Shown: positions 36,980-39,781 of the stretch, piece by piece
Position numbering within the stretch: the first letter of the stretch is position 1
Layout: the number at the start of each line of letters is the position of its first letter
Notes under the pieces: model-generated
The model's input: only the letters and a program-made list of their open reading frames with translations
Database searches by the model: none
What the model was told of the DNA's origin: nothing
Position numbers and translations under genes: made by a program
Assembly: GCA_040754315.1 (NCBI GenBank)
Contig: JBFMCS010000014.1
Location: 105,429 to 169,428 of the forward strand
Source: Bacillota bacterium
Lineage (GTDB): Bacteria > Bacillota > Sulfobacillia > DUSP01 > JBFMCS01
Direction of reading: 5' to 3'
Length of the DNA stretch: 64,000 nt

Positions 36980-39781
36980 TTGCCGGAGAACGACAAATCT
37001 CTAGGCGAAGAACTCAAAGAGAACTACGATGAGACACAGATCCAAGTACTAGAGGGGCTTGAGGCGGTCCGGAAGAGGCCTGGAATGTACGTGGGAAGCA
37101 CCGGCCCCAGGGGACTTCACCATCTCGTATTTGAGGTGGTGGACAACAGCATTGACGAGGCTCTTGCCGGCTTCTGTACAGACATCAAGGTCGTTCTCCA
37201 CAAGGACAACTCGGTGACCGTCGTTGACAACGGGCGGGGAATACCAGTGAAGATCCAGCCCAAGGTGGGAAGGCCCGCGGTGGAAGTGGCGCTTACAATG
37301 CTCCATGCTGGAGGGAAGTTTGGCGGAGGGGGCTACAAGGTTAGCGGAGGCCTCCATGGTGTGGGCGTATCTGTGGTCAACGCACTCTCCGAGTGGCTGC
37401 AGGTGGAGGTCAAGCGGGACGGTGGTGTGTTCTGCCAGCGTTACAGCAGGGGCCATCCCGTAACCGATCTCGAGAGGACTGGGGCCTCCCAGACCACTGG
37501 GACAAAGGTAACCTTCAAGCCGGACCCCGAAGTATTTGAGACCATAGAATTCAACGCAGACATCATTGCCCAGAGACTGAGGGAACTGGCATTCTTGAAC
37601 CAAGGCCTAAGAATCTCCCTCCACGATGAGAGGGATGGGGAGAAGACACAGTACCGCTACGAGGGTGGTATTACCGCCTTTGTTCAGAACCTTGGCAAGA
37701 ACAAGGATGTCCTGCATAGCAAGCCCATCTACCTAAAGACGCAGAAGAACGGGCTGGAAATAGAGTGCGCCCTGCAGTACAACCAAGGCTACGTGGAGAA
37801 CATCCTATCCTACGCCAACACCATCAGAACCCATGAGGGTGGCACCCACGAGGCCGGCTTCAAGACGGCACTTACCAGGGTAATCAACGACTACGCCAGG
37901 CGTACCGGAGCCCTGAAGGAGTCGGAGCCCAACCTCTCCGGAGACGACATCAGGGAAGGTCTCACTGCGGTGATCCATGTGAAAATGGAGAACGCGCAAT
38001 TTGAGGGCCAGACCAAGACCAAACTGGGCAACAGCGAGGTTGCTGGTCTGGTCAACTCCGTAACGGGCGAAGGCGTGGCTACATTCCTGGAGGAGCACCC
38101 GTCTGTGGTCAAGCGCATCGTGGAGAAGGCGGTGAGTGCCGCCCGGGCACGGGAGGCCGCCAGGAAAGCCAGGGACCTGGTGAGGAGAAAGAATGCCCTG
38201 GAGGTGACGTCTCTCCCTGGAAAACTCACCGACTGCAGTGTCAAGGACCCCGCTCTGGCTGAACTCTTTCTCGTTGAGGGGGATTCAGCCGGAGGCTCCG
38301 CCAAGCAAGGCCGGGATAGGCGCTTCCAGGCTATCTTGCCGCTTAGGGGCAAGATCCTCAACGTCGAGAAGTCCCGCATGGACAAGATCCTGAGCCACGA
38401 GGAGATCAGGGCGCTCATCACCGCTCTCGGTACAGGCATCGGGGAGGAGCTTGACATCAGCAAGGCCCGCTACCACCGGGTGATAATCATGAGCGTGGAC
38501 GGGGACGAGTGCTGTCTTGTCAAGAAGGCAGAGCGGGTGGAGTCGGTCCGCGCTGGCGCTTTCATTGACGAATGCCTGGATGGCCTCAGGAGCATCCAAG
38601 ACTACGAGGTGGCCTGTTTCTGCCCTGAGACACTCCAGTCTGTATTCAAGCCCATTTGCTCCGTTATCAGGCACCCCATCCACGAGCCGCTGCACGAGGT
38701 CTCAACGGCATGCGGAAGGTCGGTCCGGATCACGTCCTCCCACAGTGTCTTCGTTTACCGGGGGGGCATGGTACAGCTGGCCAAGGGAAGCGAGATACGC
38801 CCCGGTGACCTCCTGGTCGCCCCGGGCCGGTTAGACTTTCAAGGAACGCCAGGCGGAACCCCTGGGAGCCTTAAAGGCCTGGCAGCGGGATTTGGCGGAA
38901 AGGACAGCGGCTATCTCCCCGCCGCTGCCCTATCTAGCCAGGAGGGGAGACGCGCTTTCCTCAGGGGACTCTTCCAGGCCTCCGGTTCCGTCAACTGCGG
39001 GGGTATCGACTTTCCGGCAAGATCCAGGGAAATGGCTTCGCACCTTGCCTATCTTATGCTTGGAGAAGGGATCAGCCCCCTTATCAGTGAGAACGGCAGC
39101 AGGCTGAGCATTCGTGGCAGGGATTCCCTGGCCTCCCTTAGGACCGTATGGGCGGGACACCCAGACCAGGGGAGGGTGGAAGACATCCTGTCGGGAGCCG
39201 AGACCGAGCCGCCGCACGTCACCGCCATCGGCGGGGACCTCATCGCAACACCTGTGGTATCGTCAAGGCAGGTACACGGAACAAGCCAGGTCTACGACTT
39301 CTCCGTAGAGGGCCACGAGAACTTCTTCGCGGGTCTGGGTGGCATATGCTGCCACAATACCGACGCTGACGTCGATGGTGCCCACATAAGAACCCTTCTC
39401 CTGACCTTCTTCTTCCGCCATATGGCTCCCCTCATCGAGGCGGGTTACGTGTACGCGGCGCAGCCCCCACTCTTCCTCGCAAAGAAGGGGAAAGAGGAGA
39501 AGTATCTCTACTCTGAACAGGCCCTCCAACAGCACTTGAATGACTCTGGGCATGACGGGGCAACCATCCAGCGATACAAGGGCCTGGGAGAGATGAACCC
39601 AGAGCAGCTGTGGAGCACCACCATGAACCCGGAGACTCGCACGCTGCTCCAGGTGACGGTACGAGACGCGCTACACGCGGACCAGATCTTCACCATTCTC
39701 ATGGGTGACAAGGTAGAGCCGCGGAGAGAGTTCATCCAAGCCCACGCCGATAAGGTGAGGTTCCTGGATACCATAGGTTAA
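36980..39781 (+). CDS. gyrB: DNA gyrase subunit B, intein-containing precursor
   Basis: The frame encodes 933 residues, of which 644 are GyrB and 289 (505-793) an intein. The extein has the GHKL ATPase start LEGLEAVRKRPGMYVGSTG, the GRGIPV loop, the GGKFGGGGYKVSGGLHGVG lid and TOPRIM EGDSAGGSAKQGRDR. Removal of the insert joins YHRVIIM directly to TDADVDGAHIRTLLL, restoring the metal-binding DxD motif exactly. The unspliced protein should be inactive as the catalytic metal site is interrupted. TTG start with GGGAGG upstream; gyrA follows 32 bases on. Confidence 0.97.
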   Translation: MPENDKSLGEELKENYDETQIQVLEGLEAVRKRPGMYVGSTGPRGLHHLVFEVVDNSIDEALAGFCTDIKVVLHKDNSVTVVDNGRGIPVKIQPKVGRPAVEVALTMLHAGGKFGGGGYKVSGGLHGVGVSVVNALSEWLQVEVKRDGGVFCQRYSRGHPVTDLERTGASQTTGTKVTFKPDPEVFETIEFNADIIAQRLRELAFLNQGLRISLHDERDGEKTQYRYEGGITAFVQNLGKNKDVLHSKPIYLKTQKNGLEIECALQYNQGYVENILSYANTIRTHEGGTHEAGFKTALTRVINDYARRTGALKESEPNLSGDDIREGLTAVIHVKMENAQFEGQTKTKLGNSEVAGLVNSVTGEGVATFLEEHPSVVKRIVEKAVSAARAREAARKARDLVRRKNALEVTSLPGKLTDCSVKDPALAELFLVEGDSAGGSAKQGRDRRFQAILPLRGKILNVEKSRMDKILSHEEIRALITALGTGIGEELDISKARYHRVIIMSVDGDECCLVKKAERVESVRAGAFIDECLDGLRSIQDYEVACFCPETLQSVFKPICSVIRHPIHEPLHEVSTACGRSVRITSSHSVFVYRGGMVQLAKGSEIRPGDLLVAPGRLDFQGTPGGTPGSLKGLAAGFGGKDSGYLPAAALSSQEGRRAFLRGLFQASGSVNCGGIDFPARSREMASHLAYLMLGEGISPLISENGSRLSIRGRDSLASLRTVWAGHPDQGRVEDILSGAETEPPHVTAIGGDLIATPVVSSRQVHGTSQVYDFSVEGHENFFAGLGGICCHNTDADVDGAHIRTLLLTFFFRHMAPLIEAGYVYAAQPPLFLAKKGKEEKYLYSEQALQQHLNDSGHDGATIQRYKGLGEMNPEQLWSTTMNPETRTLLQVTVRDALHADQIFTILMGDKVEPRREFIQAHADKVRFLDTIG
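38492..39358 (+). other. GyrB intein (289 residues) with degenerate homing-endonuclease remnant
   Basis: The insert starts with Ser (SVDGDECCLVKK, block A) and ends GGICCHN before a Thr extein residue. Block B is ITSSHSVFVY (TxxH at intein residues 81-84), block F is VYDFSVEGHENFFAG, and the terminal His-Asn is intact, so splicing residues look complete. Between the splicing halves lies FLRGLFQASGSV (residues 156-167), resembling the DOD endonuclease block C (LFDADGSV) but with the two acidic residues replaced by Gln and Ser. The endonuclease thus appears dead and shortened. Serine as residue 1 is less common than cysteine. Confidence 0.93.

Follow-up and report, generated by a model that had tools for sequence, protein, structure and literature searches.

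According to theory, a homing nuclease should decay freely after the intein that carries it has been fixed. Nevertheless, some archaeal inteins escape this decay, as their splicing leans on the nuclease domain. According to PMC6801210, the TFIIB inteins, including one in which the nuclease domain has degenerated, splice efficiently only with this domain; when degenerated, it presumably sets how the two Hint (splicing) parts are oriented. The dependence is not universal (PMC8966425): the splicing of TliVMA was largely diminished once the nuclease was removed, whereas that of PhoVMA, which carries a degenerated nuclease, persists without the nuclease domain. With respect to gyrase, a gyrB intein allele has been tabulated for which 6 of the members come from haloarchaea, 19 from bacteria and 1 from another euryarchaeon (PMC4071816, with no insertion site stated in the passages concerned), and 61 intein-containing archaeal GyrB sequences are mentioned in PMC9348778. 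A literature search, in which few subscription journals were covered, yielded no recognised description of a GyrB intein with half a nuclease at the TDADVDG site.

The TDADVDG motif has an established role in the binding of metal by TOPRIM enzymes. Exactly in front of this motif, and behind YHRVIIM, an in-frame insert is found in the gyrB gene of the window (i.e. the whole stretch of 64,000 nucleotides that was analyzed):

36980..39781, + strand: gyrB, one open frame for a 933-aa precursor, with start codon TTG (as listed) and exteins of 504 and 140 aa
38492..39358, + strand: intein of 289 aa, Ser1 to Asn289 (Pfam match, empty site in relatives, AlphaFold2 pLDDT 91.4)
39359..39379, + strand: TDADVDG, the first C-extein residues and TOPRIM metal motif, with Thr+1 as predicted nucleophile

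The 289-residue translation of 38492-39358 runs from SVDGDE to CCHN, and the window translation gives YHRVIIM upstream and TDADVDGAHIRT downstream of it. The calculated masses are 101.6 kDa for the precursor, 71.1 kDa for the ligated exteins and 30.6 kDa for the intein. A gyrB match was obtained in 19 of 20 other genomes of the same order and class. The site is uninterrupted in all 18 relatives in which it was readable (the contig of the one further match gave no reading), and it is followed by Thr in 15, Ala in 2 and Cys in 1 of them. Neither of the two genomes of the same order that were searched contained a match. An earlier note, made from the letters of this DNA, had claimed an insert of 289 aa, in frame and exactly at the TOPRIM metal motif of GyrB, and had named an alignment of GyrB proteins and a search with intein profiles as ways to check it. 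The flanks and the 18 empty relatives agree with that claim, and so does the Pfam profile Intein_splicing, which matched the gyrB product with an E-value of 1.3e-13 (51.5 bits versus a cut-off of 35.8).

The same product was matched by the Pfam profile LAGLIDADG_3 (E 1.7e-6, 28.6 bits versus a cut-off of 22.5). The NCBIfam profile intein_Cterm passes as well (22.4 versus 15.6), and intein_Nterm remains below its threshold (16.3 versus 24.5). Of the proteins with a solved structure, archaeal inteins (PI-PkoII, TFIIB) match the sequence best. The splicing domain is laid out as follows:

38492..38830, + strand: N-terminal part of the Hint (splicing) domain, residues 1-113, with Ser1 first
38732..38743, + strand: block B, TSSH, residues 81-84
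39212..39358, + strand: C-terminal part of the Hint domain, residues 241-289, with Asp269 of block F, His288 and Asn289

The Ser1, the block B TSSH, the block F stretch VYDFSVEGHENFFAG (residues 267-281) and the terminal HN (residues 288-289) before Thr that the earlier note had listed were all located in the translation. Indeed, the complete set of class 1 residues is present (S1, T81, H84, D269, H288, N289 and Thr+1), the insert has the Hint fold, and it is absent from the 18 readable orthologues at the same position. Judged by its sequence, 38492-39358 is an intein with class 1 catalytic residues. The chemistry of this class has been established (PMC7765530). Here an ester would first form at Ser1 and be transferred to Thr+1, after which Asn289 would cyclise and the exteins would be ligated, with IIM-TDADVDG as the restored junction. 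As long as the intein is in place it divides the metal motif, for which reason the precursor would lack activity. A loss of catalysis in the precursor, with splicing restoring the metal motif, is a safer inference than the loss of gyrase assembly that the earlier note had proposed.

Relatives were collected by searches with the GyrB intein region (793 proteins at E <= 0.001), from the related protein P0004 (645 proteins at E <= 1e-20) and with the splicing domain alone (479 proteins at E <= 1e-15), the best 120 of each being used. With a pattern that accepted Ser, Cys or Thr as first residue and demanded a terminal Asn, inteins were cut from 230 of 237 proteins (7 failed), and one of three loci tried made the number 231. 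A set of 192 inteins derives from 195 proteins, 3 of which were not extracted. All family counts given here describe the best matches of each search and constitute no census. Within the set of 192, Ser1, His84 and Asp269 are found in every intein, Thr81 in 190 and His288 in 176, and Asn289 in all 192, where it should be kept in mind that the extraction required the terminal Asn. The 231 inteins end with His-Asn (214) or Lys-Asn (17). Ser1 and Thr+1 are the rule at the TDADVDG site, and not an archaeal trait, because Ser starts 231 of the 231 extracted inteins and Thr occupies the +1 position in 188 of the 191 that were checked before the third search (Ser in the other 3). The organism names among the matches listed are mostly bacterial with a few archaea, and include Cyanobacteria, Chloroflexi, Armatimonadota, Gemmatimonadota, Synergistota, Proteobacteria and Limnochordia. 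Thus, the view in the earlier note that Ser1 with Thr+1 is of archaeal type, as opposed to the usual bacterial Cys1, was not supported by the comparison with this mainly bacterial-named family. Transfer from archaea as the source of the pair was likewise rejected as a special feature, as every extracted intein of the site has Ser1.

One scan of reference genomes produced 52 pattern matches, among which there was a single relative, L008, from a Chloroflexi record (41% over residues 1-156). One scan of viral contigs for a phage carrier yielded 26 pattern matches with no relative among them. Weak matches (L004-L007) had E-values between 1e-5 and 1e-3. When whole genomes were searched with the splicing domain as probe, matches were found in 5 of 154 genomes of the window's class, its own genome included, and in 9 of 72 genomes from a second class in the phylum. 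Thirteen of these 14 genomes carry a GyrB intein at the TDADVDG site (289-569 aa), whereas a different gene is matched in the fourteenth. Within the window's class, the remaining three GyrB inteins have full length (560, 560 and 569 aa). A bare intein was seen in the same class (L057, G498) after GGTGSGK, which we read as the P-loop of a TadA/CpaF-like ATPase and not as GyrB. In the other class, two further short forms of the TDADVDG-site GyrB intein were observed (L035-L042): one of 327-342 aa, with a basic LERFRPRRRR-like stretch at or near the second motif in 4 of the 5 seen, and one of 311 aa that has no recognisable motif. The short forms hint at several separate losses of the nuclease. 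The short inteins of this sister class start like those in proteins named Limnochordia or Firmicutes, which, together with the WhiA encoded in the window's own genome, makes a member of the Bacillota the likely host.

The window intein shares with the other inteins of the TDADVDG site the insertion point, Ser1, Thr+1, a homologous Hint domain and the residues of blocks B and F. Its clade among the inteins found consists of P0002 (97%), P0003 (81%) and P0004 (56%) in addition to the window intein (SH-aLRT 99). The deeper forks of the tree are not well supported, and the clade may or may not share its origin with a short group of 327-350 aa. The main difference lies in the nuclease. Whereas 148 of the 192 site inteins are at least 540 aa long, 138 of these with both motif acids, the members of the clade measure 274-289 aa, are the shortest among the 231 and lack the first nuclease half. 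The remaining part can be divided into three segments:

38831..38947, + strand: variable linker (residues 114-152) at the place of the missing accessory region and first nuclease half (pLDDT 52-53 at residues 121-140)
38948..38992, + strand: degenerate second LAGLIDADG motif, residues 153-167 (LRGLFQASGSV), with Ser164 in place of the Asp of full-length kin
38993..39211, + strand: second nuclease half, the conserved remnant, residues 168-240 (mostly pLDDT 94-97)

More specifically, the window intein has 21 residues in the accessory-region columns against a mean of 192 in full-length kin, 20 against a mean of 98 in the first-half columns, and keeps 86 of the ~104 residues of the second half. 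The first motif, recognised by pattern in 142 of the 148 full-length inteins (>= 540 aa), is absent. At the second-motif position, 142 of these 148 have Asp and 4 have Asn, and the flanking glycines are invariant among them; the window intein has Ala-Ser-Gly there and P0004 has Leu-Lys-Gly. On this alignment the nuclease of the window intein is dead, both active-site acids having been lost, and the intein is very likely immobile because the first LAGLIDADG half and the catalytic Asp of the second motif are gone. This state of the nuclease, half deleted, deprived of its catalytic Asp and yet conserved in what is left, had not been reported in the earlier note and emerged in the follow-up. The intein is neither a two-motif LAGLIDADG homing endonuclease, with its first half absent and Ser164 for Asp, nor a bare mini-intein, with 132 residues between 113 and 246 that are modelled as a folded half-domain. 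I-CreI is a LAGLIDADG enzyme with a single motif that acts as a homodimer, and the surviving half, with its one motif-like helix and a LAGLIDADG_3 score above the cut-off, might be taken for an active homing nuclease of that kind. However, where the motif should have its metal-binding Asp, the window intein has Ser and P0004 has Lys, and we regard this explanation as extremely improbable.

Between the window intein and P0003 the identities are 91/113 for the N-terminal Hint part, 19/39 for the linker, 63/73 for the remnant and 44/49 for the C-terminal Hint part; between the window intein and P0004 they are 72/113, 4/26, 44/73 (without a gap) and 29/49, respectively. The fraction of columns that are invariant in the window intein, P0003 and P0004 is similar for the remnant (44/73) and the Hint domain (91/162; Fisher p 0.57), unlike that for the linker (4/39; p 2e-7 against the remnant). 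Seventeen of the 44 invariant remnant columns hold residues that are found in less than 10% of the 188 other inteins, versus 9 of 91 for the Hint domain, a contrast that is weaker than it looks as the remnant columns are more variable outside the clade anyway. As a control, pairs were formed from the 138 full-length inteins in which both motif acids are present, and were matched by Hint identity. At a Hint identity of 0.61-0.67, the remnant identity of window and P0004 is reached by 27 of 657 pairs, and at 0.80-0.87 that of window and P0003 by 1 of 468; for sets of pairs that share no member the means are 2.5 of 41.5 and 1.0 of 33, respectively. In these alignments the conservation of the remnant equals that of the splicing domain and exceeds that in most active-looking pairs at equal distance. 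The higher conservation could reflect a relief from diversifying pressure on DNA contacts. The remnant, conserved like the Hint domain, may be constrained without nuclease activity in the way of the TFIIB inteins, but the contrasts are in effect two and have branches in common.

These data bear on the idea that the remnant is debris without a role, left by a nuclease loss of fairly recent date, in an intein that is turning into a bare mini-intein. In the standard homing cycle the nuclease decays and is deleted once the intein has been fixed (PMC8966425, PMC3229294), and PhoVMA illustrates that a degenerated nuclease may persist when it is not needed (PMC8966425). Nevertheless, the linker has been nearly randomised with respect to P0004 while the remnant has remained gapless, and inteins of 200 aa or less number 0 of the 231 that were extracted from the best matches at the TDADVDG site, yet are common at the other GyrB site. 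We consider the debris explanation unlikely. All 37 inteins of less than 480 aa at the TDADVDG site keep 64-108 residues of the second half, and the 13 GyrB inteins of the whole-genome searches, which measure 289-569 aa and may partly coincide with members of the 231, include no bare one. The second site, EGDSAGG/SAKQ, lies in the same host protein but differs in position, in the use of Cys1 and Ser+1, and in the length of its inteins (141-435 aa, e.g. in P0087, P0127 and P0169). Twelve of the 27 that were measured there are no longer than 200 aa, whereas their TDADVDG-site partners are all at least 441 aa; that all 27 share a protein with such a partner follows from the way in which the proteins had been collected. 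The Cys1 type at the EGDSAGG/SAKQ site also includes the Ssp GyrB intein. A GyrB mini-intein of 123 residues without nuclease is reported from Desulfonema ishimotonii in PMC6390638, where its site is not given, and it may be a counterexample to the absence of bare inteins from the TDADVDG site.

Considering the above, our preferred explanation, in which we have moderate confidence, is that of an immobile intein at the TOPRIM motif that is predicted to splice and has kept its dead half-nuclease as a structural brace that the Hint domain needs. The surviving half-domain as such has likely been kept as a brace for the splicing domain, where it would keep both parts of the Hint fold in position, the role described for the TFIIB inteins. 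The TFIIB inteins of Methanocaldococcus are archaeal and reside in another host protein, and the window intein differs from them in that half of its nuclease has been deleted and its dependence is predicted by analogy. PhoVMA counts against the brace: according to PMC8966425 it has kept both nuclease halves, which are still structured, and splices without the domain, whereas the window intein keeps one half.

Alternatively, the half-domain may have turned into a DNA-binding regulator, e.g. of gyrB, comparable to WhiA with its LAGLIDADG-like domains. The fold is retained in the AlphaFold2 model and a WhiA is encoded in the same genome. However, the half carries a net charge between -1 and 0 in the clade, versus a mean of +5.1 in the 138 active-looking inteins (sd 6.2, range -11 to 20), and a regulatory role seems decidedly improbable to us. 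If the half-domain is indeed needed as a brace, this would explain why an allele found in many phyla seems not to shed its nuclease fold. The TDADVDG site offers a natural test of the dependence of splicing on the nuclease, with a built-in control in the form of the second site in the same gyrase protein, where bare inteins are common. In addition, a half-domain that is small, dead and conserved makes a suitable object for finding out which part acts as the brace.

Finally, the earlier note had suggested that supercoiling could be tied to the conditions that affect splicing. Along this line, the intein would be kept for a conditional splicing that links gyrase activity to redox state, metal or temperature. 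This is compatible with a role of the half-domain as a brace, and conditional splicing has been described for other replication proteins (e.g. PMC6195587 and PMC7360933). The intein is rich in cysteine, with 10/289 residues against 4/644 in its own exteins (p 0.002) and 38/3448 in eight genes of the window (p 0.003). None of the 188 other inteins reaches its Cys fraction, 8 of its Cys are conserved throughout the window intein, P0003 and P0004, and Cys7 and Cys169, both invariant in the clade, are found in 0 of the 188. On the other hand, Ser1 and Thr+1 are non-thiols and the cysteine richness was picked out only after looking. It is the sole feature that could carry the idea, and we judge conditional splicing as the reason for the intein's retention improbable. 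A wider proposal, that the rebuilt half is an obligatory splicing subdomain of all TDADVDG-site inteins and that the half of this clade with its 8 Cys would make gyrase maturation responsive to thiol oxidation or metal, is unlikely as well.

The same genome contains two other inteins, with 5 Cys in 328 and 3 in 265 residues. These lie 11 residues apart in a ribonucleotide reductase (L002, contig C39); the first ends with Leu-Asp before Cys instead of His-Asn, and the second contains a decayed LAGLIDADG stretch, LRSLFQLRGSV. Within the window, gyrB is part of the cluster dnaA-dnaN-recF-dciA-gyrB-gyrA, in which a RemA-like gene (36624-36950) is situated between dciA and gyrB, and genes for archease and RtcB, an RNA ligase pair, follow directly 3' of gyrA (42258-44122).
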